A stretch of 64,000 bases of DNA from Phytoactinopolyspora halotolerans (GTDB lineage Bacteria; Actinomycetota; Actinomycetes; Jiangellales; Jiangellaceae): contig NZ_JAAGOA010000022.1 of assembly GCF_010550675.1 (NCBI RefSeq), forward strand, positions 62,001-126,000, read 5' to 3'. Positions 1 to 15,422 of this stretch are shown here, one piece after another. The translations under genes and the position numbers were made by a program. The number at the start of each line of letters is the position of its first letter. Position 1 is the first letter of the stretch. The notes under the pieces were generated by a model that ran no database searches, had not been told where the DNA came from, and saw nothing but the letters and a program-made list of their open reading frames with translations.

Positions 1-1192
1 CGGAAGAGGCGAAGGACGTCTGGACCGTCTCTCCGTACTCGTTCTGCTCGGACAGCCCGCCGTTCCAGGACACGAGCCAGCTCAGGTCCAACCCGGCCGT
101 GCCGTCGGGTAGCGATGACGGATCATGCCCGTGCGCCGTCGAGTCGACGGCACGGACGAACCCACCGTCGATGCCCTCCCATCGAGCCAGCTGCTCCCGC
201 ACGGGCCCTTTCGCGTCCTCCAAGAGGAAGGCATTGACCCGGGTCATGCACACCTCCGGCCCGCCGTCGTCGGTACAGACCAGCTCCGCAGCCGCCGGAT
301 CGCGTTGCCATCCGACGTCGCGAGTGTCGTTCACCAGCCACGCCGCCGCCACGATCGCGGCCGCCGCCGGGGCGACGACCAGCCACCTCCGCCGCGAGGA
401 CACCAGCACCAACACCGTCACGGTCAATCCCGCCAGCCAGAGCAGCTGGAGCAGGCGCGCATCGGTGGAGACGTGCTCTACGCCGTATCCGGTCCAGTCC
501 ATGGATGGAGTCAGCCAGGTGTACCCGGAACCGTTGGTCCCGCTGCCCATGCCCATGCTGACGAACACGACCAACCCGATCACGGGCGCCACCACCCGGC
601 TCGGGATCAACCGTCCGGCCGCGACGCCGATGGCGGCGGCCGCCGCCAGGCCGGCGAACGCCACGGCCAGCGTCAACCACCAGCCACGGCCTCCGTACGT
701 CGCCACCCGGGCGACCAGGACCGCACCGGAAGCCCAGACCAGAAGCAGACCGGCGAAGGCGCCGAGCGTGACGGCGGCCCACGCCAGCACCAACGGCTGC
801 CCGGACGGCCGGGCCGTCGAGTCCAGTAGGTCACCGATCCGTCGCCGGCGTTCCCGTCCGGCCTGCCAGGCACCGGCCGCCGCGGCAAGCGGCAGGAGCG
901 CGAACAGGATGACGGAGATGTACTCGGCCAGCGGATTCCACCGCCCGGCCCACCGCTCGGTCTCGTTGAACAGCATGGCGCCGCCGGCTACGGCGATGCT
1001 CAGCGCCGCCATCGGTGCGGTGCCGCGAATGAGTTCGGTCCGCAGCGCGCGCCACGTGGTCCGGTCGATGCCCACCGAACCTCGTTTCCCCACTCGATCC
1101 GCCCGGCCCGCCTGCTCCCGGCCCGCCTGATCCCGGCCCGGCTGCTCCCGGCCCGGCTGCTCCTGGCCCGCGCCCTCTCTGACCAGGCTCAT
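1..1192 (-). CDS. ABC-module multi-span membrane protein with extracytoplasmic domain (partial)
   Basis: The frame is open from the ATG at 1192 to the window edge, so the C-terminus is missing. The start overlaps the stop of the upstream ATPase gene as ATGA. The first 30 residues hold a Gln/Arg/Gly-rich repeat (GREQPGRDQAGREQ) encoded by 15-bp tandem repeats. About six hydrophobic spans follow, then a soluble part with a CTDDGGPEVC motif. The protein at 13117-14442 has a matching CTDGTPRVC motif after a similar set of membrane spans and is likewise next to an ATPase, so the two are probably paralogues. I infer a permease-like subunit of the ABC system encoded just upstream. The substrate is unknown. 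Confidence 0.75.
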   Translation of the reverse strand, partial: MSLVREGAGQEQPGREQPGRDQAGREQAGRADRVGKRGSVGIDRTTWRALRTELIRGTAPMAALSIAVAGGAMLFNETERWAGRWNPLAEYISVILFALLPLAAAAGAWQAGRERRRRIGDLLDSTARPSGQPLVLAWAAVTLGAFAGLLLVWASGAVLVARVATYGGRGWWLTLAVAFAGLAAAAAIGVAAGRLIPSRVVAPVIGLVVFVSMGMGSGTNGSGYTWLTPSMDWTGYGVEHVSTDARLLQLLWLAGLTVTVLVLVSSRRRWLVVAPAAAAIVAAAWLVNDTRDVGWQRDPAAAELVCTDDGGPEVCMTRVNAFLLEDAKGPVREQLARWEGIDGGFVRAVDSTAHGHDPSSLPDGTAGLDLSWLVSWNGGLSEQNEYGETVQTSFASS

Positions 1193-1959
1193 CGCTGCCT
1201 CGCCGCCCGGAGCACCGCGGTGTAGCCGCGCTCGATCGCCGAGTCACCCGTGCCGGCGTCGTTCCCGGCCGCGGCCAGCTCCTCATGTGTGCCACGAAAG
1301 ACCGTCCGCCCGTCGTTGATCAGGGTGACATCGGTGCATGCGGCCGTGACGTCCTCGACCAAATGCGTCGCCACCACGACGCACGCGTCGACCCCGATGG
1401 TCCGCAGCAGCTCGCGGAAGGCCACCCGTTGCTCCGGGTCGAGCCCGGCGGTCGGCTCGTCCAGCAGCAGCAGGTCGGGGTCGTTGACGATCGCCTGCGC
1501 GATCCCGGCCCGCCGCAGCATCCCGCCGGAGAGCTTCTTCAGCCGCTCGTCGGCGCGGTCCAGCAGGCCGACGCGCTCGATCGCCCGGTCGACGGCGGTC
1601 GGCACCTGCGCCGCGGGCATCTCCTTCAGCCAGGCGAAGTACTCGACGAACTCCCGAACGGTGAACCGCGGGTAGTAGCCGAACTGTTGCGGCAGGTAGC
1701 CGAGCCGGCGCCGGACCTGTCGCAGACGCCCGTGGTCACCGAGTTCGTGGTCGAGCAGCGACACGTGACCCGAGGTCGGTGTCGCCACCGTGGCCAGCAC
1801 TCGCATCAGGGTCGTCTTCCCCGCGCCATTGGGTCCGAGCAGCCCGTGCACACCCGTGTCCAGGGTGAGGTCAAGCCGGTCGAGTGCGGCGCGCTTCCCG
1901 AACCGCACGACGAGGTCGCGCACGTCGACGTGGGTTCCGATCATGGTGGGAACGGTCAT
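1189..1959 (-). CDS. ABC transporter ATP-binding protein
   Basis: This 256-residue ATPase is of the antibiotic/lipid exporter type. It has a Walker A motif (GPNGAGKT) near residue 42, Q-loop sequence (GYLPQQFG), the signature LSGGMLRR, Walker B (LLLLDEP) and a switch His (ATHLVED). The ATG at 1959 was chosen because conserved ABC sequence begins a few residues later; it lies 2 bases past the stop of the anti-sigma gene. The downstream membrane gene overlaps it by 4 bases. It should energise transport by the membrane proteins encoded on either side. Function is clear at family level; the substrate is not. Confidence 0.9.
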   Translation of the reverse strand: MTVPTMIGTHVDVRDLVVRFGKRAALDRLDLTLDTGVHGLLGPNGAGKTTLMRVLATVATPTSGHVSLLDHELGDHGRLRQVRRRLGYLPQQFGYYPRFTVREFVEYFAWLKEMPAAQVPTAVDRAIERVGLLDRADERLKKLSGGMLRRAGIAQAIVNDPDLLLLDEPTAGLDPEQRVAFRELLRTIGVDACVVVATHLVEDVTAACTDVTLINDGRTVFRGTHEELAAAGNDAGTGDSAIERGYTAVLRAARQR

Positions 1960-1961
1960 CG

Positions 1962-2807
1962 TCACATCTCCATCTGTGGACGGTCCGATACGGACTGCCG
2001 GTCGAATGCACTGCGTCGCACGGCCACCACCAAGGCCGCCGTCGCGGCCACGGCCAGCCAGACCGGGACCGACTCGGTGGTCAGCGCGGCGGGCGTCGTG
2101 CGCGCCGGAGTGTCGAACGTCGCGATCGTCACGCCCAGCGCCCAGCTGAACGCCGCCACGGCCGCCGCCTTGGGTATCCCGATGACGGAGCCGAGCGCCA
2201 GCGTGACCACGGTCAGCGCCAGACTGGCCAGCAGCCACGGCAGCGGCGATCCGTAGCCGGAGACCGCACCGGCCGCTGCGCCCAGTGCCGCCGACGTGGT
2301 CAGCACCACGGCCGAGCGCACCAGCAGCAGCCGCAGCCCACCGCCGGGCGTGGACGCGATGATCTCCTGCGCGTCGTCCAGCCCTGAGCCGTACGACAGC
2401 GCCACCCCCAGGATCGGCACCATCGGCGCCACGGCGCCGAGCATCGGCACGTCGCCGCGCCCGGACAGCGGCGCGAACGTGTCCAGGGCGGCCGCGAGCG
2501 CGAGCCCCACCACGCTGGCCGCCAGCCATGCCCACCGTGCCGCCGGCCCCGACGCCACCAGCATGACCACCTCGCGGTAGCGCGAGCCACGCCTGACCCG
2601 CCCCTGCTGCCCCAATCCCGCCGAGACCGCGGCCCATCCATCGGCGATGTCGCGCGTGATCGACCCGACGTCGCCTGCGGTGGACGCGACGACGGTGCGG
2701 CAATGCCCGCAGGACACCAGGTGTGCCTCGACCGACCAGGCGTCGGCGTCGCTCACCTCGCCGTCGACGTAGGCACGGGCCGTCCGCTGCGTCACATGCC
2801 AGGTCAT
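1962..2807 (-). CDS. Zinc-finger anti-sigma factor fused to a six-span membrane domain
   Basis: The first 75 residues look like a zinc-binding anti-sigma domain (zf-HC2 type): an EAHLVSCGHC segment gives the His-x3-Cys-x2-Cys pattern. About six hydrophobic segments follow, many more than the single span usual for this family, and these resemble an ABC-2 type permease domain. The start overlaps the sigma gene stop as ATGA and the stop lies 2 bases before the ATPase start. I infer a protein that both holds the ECF sigma factor at the membrane and acts as, or senses, the ABC transporter. The fusion is seen in the sequence; the dual role is inference. Confidence 0.8.
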   Translation of the reverse strand: MTWHVTQRTARAYVDGEVSDADAWSVEAHLVSCGHCRTVVASTAGDVGSITRDIADGWAAVSAGLGQQGRVRRGSRYREVVMLVASGPAARWAWLAASVVGLALAAALDTFAPLSGRGDVPMLGAVAPMVPILGVALSYGSGLDDAQEIIASTPGGGLRLLLVRSAVVLTTSAALGAAAGAVSGYGSPLPWLLASLALTVVTLALGSVIGIPKAAAVAAFSWALGVTIATFDTPARTTPAALTTESVPVWLAVAATAALVVAVRRSAFDRQSVSDRPQMEM

Positions 2808-3340
2808 GCCAGGGCCTCCCTCAGTTGCAGCCGCGCCCGCCGGGCGCGGGACTTGATGGTTCCTTCCGGCACGTCGAGCAGCACCGCCGCCTCCCGGACG
2901 GACAGTCCGTCCAGGACGGTCGCCTGCAGCACCGCCCTCAGCTCCGGCGATAGGCGGTCGAGTGCGACGGCGAGCTCCGAACCGACGGACGCCGCCAACG
3001 CTTCTTCCTCGGCCGACGGCACCTGGACCAGCTCCTCGTACGGTTCCCCCGCCGTCTGTGCCCGGGCGGCCCGTCGCCGGTGCGCGTCGATCAGCCGCCG
3101 GGTGGCGATCGACCACAGCCAGCCGCCGGATTGGCCGTTGCCTGTATACGACGCCGCCGCGCGCCAGACCGCCAGGAAGGTCTCCTGCAGGACATCCGCG
3201 GCCAGCTCGGGGTCACCGCAGCGCCGCCGCAGCCGCACCAGCAGCCAGGCGGCGTTACGCCGGTAGTACTCCTCGAACGCCGCGCGGTCACCGGAACCGG
3301 CGGCACGCAGCAGCTCGTCGTCGGAGCGTTCGCCTGTCAC
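2804..3340 (-). CDS. ECF-family RNA polymerase sigma factor
   Basis: This 178-residue protein has region 2 (DVLQETFLAVWRAA, GWLWSIATRRLIDAHRR) and region 4 with its helix-turn-helix (LSVREAAVLLDVPEGTIKSRARRAR), the layout of an ECF sigma factor. The GTG start at 3340 has no clear ribosome-binding site and may be leaderless. The gene overlaps the anti-sigma gene by 4 bases, so the two are probably made in balance. It heads the operon that continues through the ATPase and the partial membrane protein and likely regulates that operon, as is usual for ECF loci. Confidence 0.93.
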   Translation of the reverse strand: MTGERSDDELLRAAGSGDRAAFEEYYRRNAAWLLVRLRRRCGDPELAADVLQETFLAVWRAAASYTGNGQSGGWLWSIATRRLIDAHRRRAARAQTAGEPYEELVQVPSAEEEALAASVGSELAVALDRLSPELRAVLQATVLDGLSVREAAVLLDVPEGTIKSRARRARLQLREALA

Positions 3341-3676
3341 GTCAGATAGAGACGCAGCATTGTCAGAAACGGTTCTCGGGGCTCGTGCATGACCGCATTG
3401 TGTCGTGCGCTACGGCCAAGCGCGGCTGGAATAGCCCTCCGCACTCACAATGTTGTAAGATTCGCTGCCTTCTAGTTCTCAATGACAGGAGTGAGGGCAG
3501 GGACGGACAAGGCGGCCGACGTGGGTAGGGCTTCGAACGTAGGACCCGAGTCTCCGTAACTCTCAGCAGGTTCTCAGGAATCCAGGAATCTCTAGGGCGC
3601 CTCGTACGTTATGAAACGTATGTTCGTCGGGCGAACTGGGTACCGTCCGACTAGCGATCACAGGAAGGGAGGAGCC
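3341..3676. other. Divergent intergenic region between two sigma genes
   Basis: No gene is visible. The stretch is less GC-rich than its flanks and must contain promoters for the ECF operon (minus) and the group 2 sigma gene (plus). The only structured site seen is the palindrome at 3605-3620. Confidence 0.6.
3605..3620. promoter_or_regulatory. Palindrome in the leader of the group 2 sigma gene
   Basis: TACGTT and AACGTA form perfect 6-base arms around a 4-base centre, ending 56 bases before the sigma start codon. It could be an operator or part of the promoter/leader. No matching regulator is known from this window. Confidence 0.4.
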
Positions 3677-4660
3677 ATGGCAGTCAGCACTGAACTAGAT
3701 GCCACGCGTCATAATACGCGTAGCGGCTCCGAGGGGGAACCTGACCTGGTCGGGCGATACCTCGCACAGATCGGAAAGACGCCTCTGCTCAGCGCGGAGG
3801 AAGAGGTAGAGCTCGCCAAGCGCATCGAAGCAGGAGTGTATGCAGCTGAGCTGCTACGCGCCGCGGATGCCGGAGAGAGCACGCGCAAGCTGACCCCGAC
3901 CTACCGCAAGGAGCTCGAGGCCATCGCGCACGATGGCGAGCTCGCCAAGGATCATATGATCCGGGCGAACCTACGCTTGGTGGTCTCGGTGGCGCGCAAA
4001 CTGTCCAACCGAGGTTTGCCGTTTCTGGACGTGATCCAGGAGGGCAACCTGGGCCTGATGCGCGCGGTCGAGAAGTTCGACTACGCCAAGGGTTTCAAGT
4101 TCTCCACCTACGCCACCTGGTGGATCCGGCAGTCGATCCAGCGCGGGTTGGCCGAGCAGACCCGCACGGTGCGGCTCCCGGTGCACGTCGCCGAGACGGT
4201 GGCGAAGCTGCACCGGATCGGTCGCGACCTGCAGCGTCTGCTGGGACGGGACGCGACGGTCGAGGAGATCGCCGAGGAGGCCGGGCTCCCCACGGAGCGC
4301 GTCATCGAGCTGAGGCGCGTCTCGCGGGATCCGCTCAGCCTGGACACCCCGATCGGTGAGGACGGCGACACGTCCGTCGGAGAGATCATCGAGGACGACG
4401 ACGTGATCCGGGCCGAGGACGTGGCCGAGCACCACGCTCTGGTCGATTCGCTGCGCACCGTGCTCGACTCGCTGCCGCCCCGGGAGGCGCGGATCATCGA
4501 GTTGCGCTACGGGCTGGCGGATGGACACGAGCACACGCTGCAGGATGTCGCCGACGAGGTCGGTGTCTCCCGGGAACGCGTCCGTCAGCTGGAGAAGCAC
4601 GCGCTGGCCGCGCTCCGCGAGCCGCAGCGCCGGCACTCGCTGCTTGCGTGGGCGAGTTAG
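3677..4660 (+). CDS. Group 2 sigma-70 factor (SigB/HrdD-like)
   Basis: This 327-residue sigma factor lacks the long N-terminal region of a primary sigma factor but keeps region 1.2 (DLVGRYLAQIGKTPLLSAEEE), region 2 (LRLVVSVARKL, FLDVIQEGNLGLMRAVEKFD, FSTYATWWIRQ), region 3 and region 4 with a helix-turn-helix (LQDVADEVGVSRERVRQLE). Region 2.4 QSIQRGLAEQTRT indicates recognition of promoters close to the housekeeping class. The start at 3677 follows a strong GGGAGGA site; an in-frame ATG 66 bases upstream lies in the palindrome and has no such site. Family members act in stationary-phase or stress transcription. A strong hairpin follows the stop codon. Confidence 0.93.
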   Translation: MAVSTELDATRHNTRSGSEGEPDLVGRYLAQIGKTPLLSAEEEVELAKRIEAGVYAAELLRAADAGESTRKLTPTYRKELEAIAHDGELAKDHMIRANLRLVVSVARKLSNRGLPFLDVIQEGNLGLMRAVEKFDYAKGFKFSTYATWWIRQSIQRGLAEQTRTVRLPVHVAETVAKLHRIGRDLQRLLGRDATVEEIAEEAGLPTERVIELRRVSRDPLSLDTPIGEDGDTSVGEIIEDDDVIRAEDVAEHHALVDSLRTVLDSLPPREARIIELRYGLADGHEHTLQDVADEVGVSRERVRQLEKHALAALREPQRRHSLLAWAS

Positions 4661-12502: not shown

Positions 12503-13120
12503 TCAGGTGCCAGCCGGGACACCGCGCCGACGGGGCAACCAGGCAGCTCGGGTGATCGCTGCTGCCGCAACGCAGAGCGTGAGTACCTGTGTCAGTGCGA
12601 CGAGCGACGAGTGGGTGTCAAGCGGCCATGCCCACCACGCGCTGGCCGGGGCACCCGCCGCGTAAATGGTGCCGAACCTGACGCAGATGATCGGGAACAT
12701 CACCATGACGACGTTCGCGACGACGGGACCGATCAGGCGGCTCAGAACAAGAGTCAGCGCCACGTACCCGGCGGTGTTGCGTACCACGGCGAGGGAATCG
12801 GCGAATGAGAACCACGGCGCGAGCAGCGCAGCCGTCACCACCTGAGCGAGCAGCAGAGCCGCGACGGCGGCGAGATCGAACTCAGCCGGGCGCCGCACCG
12901 CGGCCGCCTCATGTGCCGGCTCGCCGCGGCCCATGTTCCACAGCACCATAGCCGCGGGTACGGCAGGCAACAGCACAGACACCGGGAGCGCGATCACTAC
13001 GCCGGAGAACAGGTCTGGCAGTTCCAGTGTCGCTGAACCGAACACAGCCGCGGCGACGACGATCATTGCCGCGGCCGCGATGCTGACGACCCAACACCGG
13101 GCGGCCATGTACCAGCTCAT
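12503..13120 (-). CDS. Multi-span membrane protein of ABC module 2
   Basis: This 205-residue protein is almost wholly hydrophobic with about six predicted spans. The start at 13120 overlaps the stop of the larger membrane protein as ATGA. A motif of the form RNTAGYVALTLVLSRLIG near residue 115 recalls permease subunits of small antibiotic-type exporters. It is the last gene of a three-gene ABC module. The family is not recognised with certainty. Confidence 0.7.
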   Translation of the reverse strand: MSWYMAARCWVVSIAAAAMIVVAAAVFGSATLELPDLFSGVVIALPVSVLLPAVPAAMVLWNMGRGEPAHEAAAVRRPAEFDLAAVAALLLAQVVTAALLAPWFSFADSLAVVRNTAGYVALTLVLSRLIGPVVANVVMVMFPIICVRFGTIYAAGAPASAWWAWPLDTHSSLVALTQVLTLCVAAAAITRAAWLPRRRGVPAGT

Positions 13121-14442
13121 GACGGGCCACCCGAGGCAGTGACGCTCCGCAGCGCGGCGGGCGGCTCCCCTTGCGGGCATTCACGCAGTGCATCGACGCC
13201 GGCTTCGTACCAGCTCAGCTGTTCAGCCGGCGACCACTCGCTGCGCATCGCACGGACGGCTTCGACGTTCTCCGGTGCGGCCACTCCCTCGGCTGTGCCG
13301 GCATCGAGACCCGCGGTGAGGTAGAGCCAGCTGGACATGCGTTCGTGAACGTCGAAGTACCACTCGGGATACCCGAGTGGGCAATCGGCCGGCTCGGTCG
13401 GCAACAACGCGCCGACCATCGTCGCCACGATCTCGATACGTCCAGGCGAGGAATGAGCGAAGGTGATCGGATCCATCGAATCGGCGTAGCGGATACCCGC
13501 CGATTCGAACCGCGCAAGCACGTCGGTGACGGACGCCTGGATGGTGTCGGCCGAGGATTCCTGCTCCGGCCACGTACACACGCGTGGCGTCCCGTCGGTG
13601 CACTCCGCGGCGGAGAGATCGCGTGGCGCCGTGGGTTCCCAGTCCAGCGGCAGCACGAGCCAGACGGCGATCGCCGTACCCGCCAGTCCAGGCAGGACGG
13701 CGGCGACGCGGGCCACAAGCACGCGCGCGGAGACGATCAGCACGGCGCTCACGATGACACCTACAGCGAACACGCACGCGGCGAAGAGCACCTCGGGCGC
13801 CGCGATCTCCTCCACGGTGCAGCAGTTGTACAGGTTGGTGGCGCCGATGTGCCGGATCCATGCGGGCTCCAGGCCCAGACCCGCGGTGGTCACAAGGAAC
13901 GATCCCATGGTGGCGAGTGGGACGGCGATCACTACCGGGAACGCACGCCCGACGGCGTAGCCGGCTGCGATGTGCGCACACAGGATCAGCAGCTCAGTGC
14001 CGAGGATCGCGACGTCCGGCCCGCCAGGCGTCCCTGGCTCCGGTACATACAGCCACAGGACCAGGCCCGTCGCGGTGACCGCCAGGACACCGACCGGCCA
14101 GCACCCTCCCACCATGACGCGTGTGGAGCTCCGCACGGGGTTGCCGACAGCATGCAGGAGCCTTCTGCTGCGGAAGCCTTCCCAAGCGGCACACGCCGCG
14201 CAGGCGGGCGCGGTGAAAGACAGGAAGAGCGTCCCGACAGCTGTCGCGGCCGTCCAGTAACCACCGTCCTCGGGCTGTGTGTCGCCGGCATAGATGGCGA
14301 TCAATCCCAGAAGAACCGGCGCAACCCAGATCACCCATGACCGCCGGATCACGGGCCCCACGGCTCGGAGACCGCGACGACGACGGAGCTCGGACCGCCG
14401 GGCTGTACGGCGGCGCGACGGTACAACAGGAGCAGTTGTCAT
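13117..14442 (-). CDS. ABC-module membrane protein with extracytoplasmic domain
   Basis: This 441-residue protein begins with an Arg-rich cytoplasmic stretch, then about six membrane spans to roughly residue 260, then a soluble part with CTDGTPRVC and further conserved-looking Trp and Cys positions. The partial protein at 1-1192 has the same order and a CTDDGGPEVC motif, so they are likely paralogues. The ATG at 14442 lies 7 bases after the ATPase stop. The soluble part may sense or bind substrate outside the membrane; no enzyme motif was seen. Confidence 0.75.
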   Translation of the reverse strand: MTTAPVVPSRRRTARRSELRRRRGLRAVGPVIRRSWVIWVAPVLLGLIAIYAGDTQPEDGGYWTAATAVGTLFLSFTAPACAACAAWEGFRSRRLLHAVGNPVRSSTRVMVGGCWPVGVLAVTATGLVLWLYVPEPGTPGGPDVAILGTELLILCAHIAAGYAVGRAFPVVIAVPLATMGSFLVTTAGLGLEPAWIRHIGATNLYNCCTVEEIAAPEVLFAACVFAVGVIVSAVLIVSARVLVARVAAVLPGLAGTAIAVWLVLPLDWEPTAPRDLSAAECTDGTPRVCTWPEQESSADTIQASVTDVLARFESAGIRYADSMDPITFAHSSPGRIEIVATMVGALLPTEPADCPLGYPEWYFDVHERMSSWLYLTAGLDAGTAEGVAAPENVEAVRAMRSEWSPAEQLSWYEAGVDALRECPQGEPPAALRSVTASGGPS

Positions 14443-14449
14443 TGCCGCC

Positions 14450-15193
14450 CTACGCCTCGTTGCCGACATAGCGCGCATACGCCAACTCGGCCCGCTTTGT
14501 TTCCGGGGTGCCCTCCGGGGCCATGCCGAGGAACGACTGAAGCCCGCCGTCATGGTGGACTCGCCCATGCGCGAGCAACACGACGTGATCGAATACCGTA
14601 TCGAGATCGTCGGTCTGGTGCGTCGATACGATGATCTGCGCCGTCTCCCTCAACTCGGCGATCAATCGACGAAAGACCTGACGCTGGCCCGGGTCCAGAC
14701 CCGCGGTCGGCTCGTCCATCAGGACCCATGACGCTTCGTGCACGAGCGCCTGTGCGATCGCCATGCGGCGCTGCTGACCGCCCGACAGCTTGCCGCTCGC
14801 GCGGCCGGCCAGGTCGCCCAGCTCCACCCGCTCAAGCGCGCGAATCGATCGGTCCCACGCCTCGGAGCGCGACAGCCCCTTCAACCAGCCGCAATACGCC
14901 ACCTGCTCCCGCACCCGAAGTCCGGGCACGGCCGTGACCTGCTGCGGGATCCACGAAACGCGACGACGGTAGGCTGCCAACTCGCGCTTACGCGCGGGCA
15001 CGAGGCCATCCAGGGAGACCCGCCCCGAGTCAGGCCGAATCGCCGTGGCCGCGATGCCCAACAATGTGGACTTGCCCGCCCCGTTCGGCCCGAGCACTAC
15101 GGTCACCGGATCGTGAAAGGACAAGGTCAACCGATCGAAGAGTCTGCCGGACCGGCGGTATGAGAACGTCACGTTCTCGAACACGAGGGGCAT
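14450..15193 (-). CDS. ABC transporter ATP-binding protein
   Basis: This 247-residue ATPase has Walker A (GPNGAGKST, near residue 37), Q-loop (SWIPQQVTAV), signature LSGGQQRRMAIAQAL, Walker B (WVLMDEP) and switch His (VSTHQTDD). The ATG at 15193 was chosen over one 15 bases upstream because GTGGAG is placed 7 bases before it. It heads a three-gene module with two membrane proteins. Its likeness to the 1189-1959 ATPase module supports duplication of a whole transporter unit, here without the sigma/anti-sigma pair. Confidence 0.9.
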   Translation of the reverse strand: MPLVFENVTFSYRRSGRLFDRLTLSFHDPVTVVLGPNGAGKSTLLGIAATAIRPDSGRVSLDGLVPARKRELAAYRRRVSWIPQQVTAVPGLRVREQVAYCGWLKGLSRSEAWDRSIRALERVELGDLAGRASGKLSGGQQRRMAIAQALVHEASWVLMDEPTAGLDPGQRQVFRRLIAELRETAQIIVSTHQTDDLDTVFDHVVLLAHGRVHHDGGLQSFLGMAPEGTPETKRAELAYARYVGNEA

Positions 15194-15422
15194 GAGAACA
15201 CTCCACAAGTCTCGCGTCGAGCCTCGCGGATCGCGCAGCCCAACGTGAACGATCTTCTCTCCGGAGCTGACTCTAACGCCTCCGAACTCTGCTCGTCGGC
15301 AACCTCAACACCGGCATCTGGCCAGCGGTCTCCGGGTATCCCGGCTCCCGAGAAGCGGGGATGTAGCCGGCAACGCCATACTTCGGAGTGGACCAGAGAA
15401 CTGCGAGGGCGGGACACCGACA

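Follow-up and report, generated by a model that had tools for sequence, protein, structure and literature searches.

A 64,000-nucleotide stretch of the Phytoactinopolyspora halotolerans genome (C15:62001-126000; hereafter the window) begins within an operon in which an extracytoplasmic function (ECF) sigma factor is encoded next to a fusion protein and an ATP-binding cassette (ABC) ATPase. The fusion protein, named ASP, joins an anti-sigma domain to an ABC-2-type permease domain. Together with the ATPase and two further membrane proteins, MP1 and MP2, the sigma factor and ASP form a self-contained cassette of five genes, and this cassette is found across Actinomycetota. We read it, with rather more belief than doubt, as a self-regulating signaling and export unit in which ASP would sense the state of the transporter.

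Gene order, distribution, and predicted promoter

The operon runs on the minus strand, as do the other features of the window given below unless stated otherwise, and the window edge cuts inside it; the C-terminus of MP1 and all of MP2 were read from the same contig beyond the window (locus L009). The ECF sigma factor (178 aa; 2804..3340) matches Pfam Sigma70_r2 (1.4e-13) and Sigma70_r4_2 (5.8e-13) and, over cut-off, TIGR02937 (sigma70-ECF). In Pfam, regions 2 and 4 are above cut-off and no region 3 family is listed, as in ECF factors. The gene encoding ASP (281 aa; 1962..2807) follows, and then the gene for the ABC ATPase (256 aa; 1189..1959; Pfam ABC_tran, 1.4e-31), whose Walker A, LSGG signature, and Walker B motifs are intact. 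MP1 (488 aa; 1..1192, ending outside the window at C15:61726) has an ABC-2-like permease domain and a C-terminal domain according to its model and alignment. MP2 (229 aa; C15:60987-61676) is encoded by the fifth gene, which lies entirely outside the window and starts 49 nt after MP1. An initial annotation of this DNA had described the genes for the sigma factor, anti-sigma-permease, ATPase, and membrane protein as overlapping or nearly touching, and had given the operon its own ABC ATPase. Both descriptions are borne out, and the annotated coordinates were right: the sigma factor and ASP genes overlap by 4 nt, a gap of 2 nt separates ASP from the ATPase, and the ATPase and MP1 genes overlap by 4 nt. 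Pfam family matches back all of the genes in that annotation, MP1 only through a below-cut-off match to ABC2_membrane_3.

A single-sequence scan of the genome contigs returned no ASP relatives, and an alignment-based scan returned 13. Of the 22 family genomes, 11 carry relatives, counting this one (one of the 11 is weak). The same gene order is annotated in a Streptomyces plasmid record, where a sigma factor, a zf-HC2 protein, and an ABC ATPase are followed by two hypothetical proteins. Hosts known by name belong to Phytoactinopolyspora, Jiangella, Haloactinopolyspora, and Micromonospora. When a ten-row profile was searched against 396 genomes of the phylum, at least 86 had matches, many of them to the zinc finger only; the phylum searches scored no more than 6 to 8 candidates in each genome, which makes their tallies lower bounds.

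The survey of such fusions across actinomycetes that the initial annotation had called for yielded 43, defined as full-length, non-duplicate matches of at least 70 bits pooled from the family, plasmid, phylum, and alignment-based contig scans. Matches below 70 bits are excluded, for example L031, part of which is masked, and L094 to L098, which for the most part are plain zinc-finger anti-sigma proteins. Loci L099-L104 come from genomes that were already in the set and were omitted, and L022 and L031 are partly read as N. An ECF sigma gene lies no more than 100 nt upstream of the fusion in 43/43 loci, and the Hx3Cx2C motif is present in every one of the 43 proteins. The ABC ATPase gene is directly downstream in 41/43, and the other two loci (L065, L080) reach contig ends; in L070 the fusion frame runs past the ATPase start, perhaps through a draft frameshift. 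All 18 close operons, which come from the own family, the plasmid, and the Micromonospora group, have MP1, and 17 have MP2 (none in L028). On sufficiently long contigs of the phylum sample, the ATPase is usually followed by other multi-helix proteins. The gene grouping in the window is not due to chance, because the sigma-fusion-ATPase order recurs in 41 of 43 loci and on the Streptomyces plasmid.

Sigma factor and fusion genes overlap by 4 nt in 37 of the 43 loci, possibly more given the upstream starts in L076, L082, L086, and L088. Such tight coupling would also suit an ordinary transport subunit, in which the fusion merely co-localizes the sigma factor and sigma activity tracks the abundance or turnover of ASP and not the state of transport. 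This idea leaves the kinase and cyclase fusions described below unexplained, and we consider it very improbable.

A predicted ECF-type promoter, GAACC-N14-TGCGTC, precedes the sigma gene (3351..3375), and the GTG start of the sigma factor lies 10 nt past the -10 element (leaderless-like). GAACC-N14/15-TGCGTC is found ahead of the sigma gene in 16/18 close operons in its strict form and in 18/18 in its relaxed form; the pattern was derived from the sequences in which it was counted, and the shuffle control (mean 0.0045/18, strict) is partly circular. The window holds one match to this pattern, and 33 of 100 shuffles also give at least one. For the phylum sample, open enumeration came first (13/33 loci, against a maximum of 9 in 20 shuffles), and the chosen pattern, GAACC-N16..18-CGA[CT], was then counted before the sigma gene in 23 of 27 operons (shuffles: mean 0.16, maximum 2), the misses being L064, L075, L087, and L088. 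This set of 27 omits any locus that lacks a strong fusion or a sigma gene or has too little upstream sequence, and it includes a few operons with an MP1 resembling that of the window. Because most operons have a GAACC-type promoter ahead of the sigma gene, the operon is likely autoregulated by its sigma factor.

The two halves of ASP

By profile, the N-terminus of ASP (residues 1-66; 2610..2807) is a class I anti-sigma domain, and it would bind the sigma factor. Pfam zf-HC2, the one family that Pfam recognizes in ASP, matches residues 12-37 over cut-off (1.5e-07), and the same family is matched by 36/45 ASP members at E <= 0.01; NCBIfam gives only weak, below-cut-off anti-sigma matches at the N-terminal end of ASP. 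Searched against the Protein Data Bank (PDB), a 45-protein ASP profile matched 6 sequences at E <= 1, 5 of which are anti-sigma factors: ChrR (5.3e-07 and 6.1e-07), 3hug (1.2e-04), DdvA (4.4e-03), and RsiW (0.014). We take 3hug to be RslA, although the PDB record reads "probable conserved membrane protein." The sixth match, a chromodomain protein at 0.59, was taken as chance. The AlphaFold model has four helices within residues 7-64. Candidate zinc ligands are H4, H29, C33, and C36, which make up an Hx3Cx2C motif and an upstream His; H29, C33, C36, and the N-terminal His align with His and Cys of ChrR. All four ligands are kept in 38/45 rows as aligned, and in 42/45 when the starts of L076, L082, L086, and L088 are read further upstream. 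The rows without all four are L087, L089, and L090. Two of these loci, L087 and L090, have a sigma factor and ATPase beside a permease-like protein with no zinc motif anywhere in frame.

Retention of the zinc ligands in 42/45 rows would be expected if the zinc finger itself were the sensor, responding to redox change or zinc loss as in RsrA-like proteins, or if a protease cut ASP to free the sigma factor, with the membrane domain a passive anchor in either case. In passages of a class I anti-sigma survey, cytoplasmic domains of this class are often tied to redox sensing, and the zinc motif can be structural and non-sensing in membrane-bound members (PMC7406223). L087 and L090, which keep the sigma factor and ATPase and lack Hx3Cx2C, also argue against zinc-based sensing. 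Conservation points the same way: across 40 rows, mean entropy is 1.87 in the permease half and 1.96 in the anti-sigma half. The permease half is thus conserved as well as the anti-sigma half, which an anchor would not need and which would be unexpected for a mere tether. Neither are the kinase and cyclase fusions described below expected of an anchor. We regard a passive membrane anchor as improbable.

The membrane half of ASP (residues 89-270; 1998..2543) is predicted to be a six-helix, ABC-2/type V-like permease domain; its modeled shape resembles a permease fold and corresponds to one half of an export pump. In the AlphaFold model of ASP (mean pLDDT 85.1, pTM 0.75), helices span residues 92-115, 122-140 (broken), 156-183, 189-209, 211-232, and 244-263. 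A fold search with the model placed ABC transporter membrane domains in all of the best 50 of 505 VIA-align rows at Z >= 2, with Z from 12.5 to 8.3 and alignments spanning model residues 67-275; VIA-align re-ranks Foldseek candidates, and helical bundles can reach Z of about 13 by arrangement alone, which counsels caution with these scores. The best row is a mycobacterial efflux pump (Z 12.5 over 187 residues), and further rows include NosY (11.7), ABCA4, ABCG5, ABCA1, KpsM, PmtCD, CcmABCD, and LptB2FG. We take the mycobacterial pump and the CcmB among these rows to be ABC transporter parts. The initial annotation had proposed a zf-HC2 domain followed by about six membrane spans and had called the membrane part permease-like. 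The Pfam match and the six model helices agree with the first proposal. For the second, a known non-transporter fold was looked for, and the best 50 rows were all ABC proteins.

The loop between helices 2 and 3 of ASP (residues 144-164; 2316..2378) is a candidate coupling helix to the ATPase. D144 and R164 occur in 45/45 members, and E148 and P154 in 43/45. Mean entropy over loop residues 140-165 is 1.43, compared with 1.87 for the domain (89-270), and the model shows a short helix (148-152) inside the loop. In ABC-2 permeases, the coupling helix sits between helices 2 and 3.

The membrane domain as a putative sensor

A profile of the membrane half gave at least 37 matches at E <= 1e-5 in at least 31/396 phylum genomes. 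Sorted by hand, 30 of the 37 are zinc-finger fusions beside a sigma gene, and two (G209, G134) have the sigma gene without the zinc motif. One match (G182:C7) has neither a sigma match nor a zinc motif, and one (G194) is partial and unplaced. The other three carry a different output domain and no zinc finger: in two kinase fusions (L078:1212-3158 and L091:3077-4567), the ASP-type membrane domain is followed by HisKA_3/HATPase_c (HisKA_3 1.2e-13 and 1.7e-15), and in a cyclase fusion (L081:664-2013) it is followed by Guanylate_cyc (2.3e-26). All 11 conserved membrane-domain residues that were checked are kept in these three proteins. In a tree of 34 membrane domains, with topology read without support values, the cyclase fusion stands apart from the two kinase fusions, and all are nested among anti-sigma fusions. 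Genes for a sigma factor, ASP, and ATPase are also present upstream in L078 and L081, in the same direction as the kinase or cyclase fusion. No response regulator was found among the inspected genes beside the kinase fusions; the one scanned encodes an acetyltransferase.

Appearance of the same domain on a kinase and a cyclase is the strongest single reason for reading it as a signal input, and these sequence comparisons favor that role over an anchor. It is plausible, if somewhat short of probable, that an ABC-2-type permease domain with an ABC ATPase serves as a general plug-in sensor for three unrelated outputs (anti-sigma domain, HisKA_3 kinase, and nucleotide cyclase). If so, pump conformation would set gene expression or second-messenger levels with no separate receptor.

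Feeding anti-sigma, kinase, and cyclase outputs from one membrane domain is also receptor-like. ASP could be a stand-alone receptor with a transport-dead ABC-2-type permease domain that senses a membrane ligand or stress, and the ATPase, MP1, and MP2 would then be the regulated output pump. MP1 and MP2 could already supply two membrane halves, and a paralogous operon in the window has pump genes without ASP. Less easily reconciled with a free-standing receptor are the ABC ATPase gene beside the domain in 41/43 loci, with the other two at contig ends, and the candidate coupling-helix loop, where conservation is higher than over the full domain. We hold the stand-alone receptor to be a minority possibility, and sensing of the transporter's own state by ASP remains our preferred reading.

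MP1 was modeled from a later start (449 aa; pLDDT 91), and its residues 5-229 match NosY with Z 15.0 over 215 residues, which is stronger than the ASP matches and of the same class. ASP aligns to the second half (289-548) of the mycobacterial efflux pump and MP1 to the first half (20-277); alignment to two pump halves is circumstantial, and would fit an ASP/MP1 pair. Four cysteines in the C-terminal domain of MP1 are invariant in 22/22 rows, and this domain is taken to be outside the cell. One locus carries a tandem duplicate of MP1 (L023:2917-5573).

Several results weigh against transporter-state sensing by ASP. The paralogous ABC operon (12503-15208) consists of an ATPase gene (14450-15208), an MP1-like gene with DUF7224 (13117-14568), and an MP2-like gene (12503-13180), and no ASP or sigma gene is among the frames listed there. 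This suggests that an ATPase, MP1, and MP2 can form a pump without ASP; ASP may therefore be a sensor riding on the pump, a third permease with a sensing role, or a receptor that stands alone. With three membrane proteins to a single ATPase, more than one pairing would also be possible. The kinase and cyclase fusions come from three loci only, in draft genomes, and in L081 the ATPase is spread over two reading frames. By itself, Foldseek gave nothing for ASP at E <= 0.001 (best 0.63, ABCG5/ABCG8, probability 0.96), and ABC proteins appear among its hits alongside channels, peptide transporters, and aquaporins. Because the Foldseek result is not significant and helical bundles can score highly, the fold assignment depends on how uniform the VIA-align rows are. 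None of the Pfam ABC-2 models matches any of the 45 ASP members at E <= 0.01, and for this reason the domain is filed as an ABC-2-type fold and not as a member of a Pfam ABC-2 family. Comparison of the ASP profile with the MP2 and MP1 alignments detected no sequence relation, and a recent origin of ASP by duplication of MP2 was accordingly discarded. Lastly, a genome-wide search for a wider regulon with the first promoter pattern gave 19 matches, compared with 14 in a reversed control. Only the operon's own site among the 19 lies 10 nt before a plausible start, and two others lie at 18 and 20 nt. No further clear copy of the promoter stands out in the genome, and no regulon is claimed.

The initial annotation had suggested that the transporter could itself be the sensor, with substrate transport releasing the sigma factor. 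The anatomy of the cassette and the exchange of the membrane domain among anti-sigma, kinase, and cyclase proteins fit this suggestion and support it in part; the paralogous operon hints that the fusion may be a sensor riding on the pump and not a transport half of it. The sigma factor might also be released by a bound ligand, by the state of the lipids, or by a redox change in the zinc finger.

Other observations concern the paralog and the surroundings of the cassette. DUF7224, a weak match in one MP1, was traced in 198 genomes and gave 2 matches, one of them the paralog in the window; it gave no useful clue to function. After MP2 and outside the window, L009:2671-6374 holds two genes for proteins that resemble ABC exporters, each combining ATPase and membrane domains in a single chain. 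Extension of the cassette to these two downstream ABC genes was rejected, with full-length matches in 0/11 other loci compared. In L110 and L111 (Micromonosporaceae), MP2 is followed by a second, weakly sigma-like gene and a gene for a 281-aa protein with one predicted helix. On the plus strand, divergent beside the operon, positions 3611-4660 of the window hold a 349-aa frame that by eye is primary-type sigma-70-like, and the L022 relative has a 349-aa frame at a similar place.

Proposed mechanism and known systems

In the mechanism that we propose, the cytoplasmic N-terminal zinc domain of ASP would keep the sigma factor at the membrane in the resting cell, and the C-terminal permease domain would sit in or beside a transporter formed by the ATPase, MP1, and MP2. 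A substrate meeting the transporter, or the ATPase cycle, would cause a conformational change. The substrate might be an amphiphilic compound, a peptide, or a lipid intermediate of the envelope. The permease domain of ASP would relay the change to the anti-sigma domain, and the sigma factor would be released. Freed sigma factor would then transcribe its own operon from the GAACC/TGCGTC promoter, giving more pump and more anti-sigma factor. Sigma binding, assembly of ASP with the ATPase, release, the substrate, and use of the promoter are steps that we infer.

The cassette resembles SigE-ChrR, SigL-RslA, and SigW-RsiW in its adjacent sigma/anti-sigma pair, its N-terminal zinc anti-sigma domain, and the ECF-type promoter before the sigma gene. 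It differs from such ECF sigma/class I (ZAS) pairs in the six-helix ABC-2-type permease domain and in having an ATPase and two membrane proteins in the operon; class I (ZAS) anti-sigma members have, to our knowledge, one membrane span or none. The sigY-yxlCDEFG operon of Bacillus subtilis is an ECF sigma operon with an ABC ATPase and a permease, and there the anti-sigma factor and permease are separate proteins, unlike the single chain found here. As far as we know, signal sensing by multi-helix ECF anti-sigma factors is largely open. One such protein may be MibW, which Foulston and Bibb are said to have described in 2010 with about six helices.

The MibX/MibW pair of the microbisporicin cluster is the closest known characterized actinobacterial pair with linked ABC transporters and an antibiotic signal, likened to our cassette by description only. 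The anti-sigma factor is proposed to respond to the lantibiotic or to the envelope stress that it causes, and ABC transporter genes are among the targets of MibX (PMC4973701; PMC5742136). The mibXW genes are described there as their own transcription unit, with the transporters elsewhere in the cluster (PMC5742136), whereas the sigma factor, ASP, and transporter genes of the window are in one operon. We group PspX/PspW of planosporicin, a pair named in another source (PMC7142297), with MibX/MibW.

In logic, the closest system is BceAB-BceRS of Firmicutes, which is a precedent for sensing of transporter state. In BceAB-BceS, the ABC transporter is believed to report when it is needed and so to switch on its own genes (PMC10314905). 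Signaling in Bce systems runs through a kinase and a response regulator that are separate from the transporter, and the permease is large and single (PMC7828314). Unlike Bce, the cassette here has its signaling domain covalently built into the permease-fold protein and uses a sigma factor as output; no two-component system is present in the window operon, and a sigma/anti-sigma pair takes its place.

Our literature search found no anti-sigma/ABC-permease fusion described where we looked, which does not mean that none has been published. Three reviews that were searched by term returned no passage on such a fusion (PMC8999054; PMC8103513; PMC4598750). ABC transporters are mentioned near ECF257 in one passage, among groups without an anti-sigma factor (PMC8999054). 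In the text portion of the class I anti-sigma survey, the word permease is absent, and domain composition by subgroup is given in a figure (PMC7406223).

Transporter-coupled signaling is already known, and a covalent fusion with a sigma-factor output would be a further form of it. With the anti-sigma domain covalently joined to a permease-fold protein and the ATPase encoded beside it, the relation between the ATPase cycle and sigma activity is directly testable. If transporter-state sensing by ASP is true, these cassettes, found across Actinomycetota, would do with a sigma factor what Bce modules do in flux sensing, and the same sensor would also exist in kinase and cyclase versions. They may also provide a handle on the cargo of uncharacterized exporters, for which envelope-active antibiotics would be the obvious candidate.

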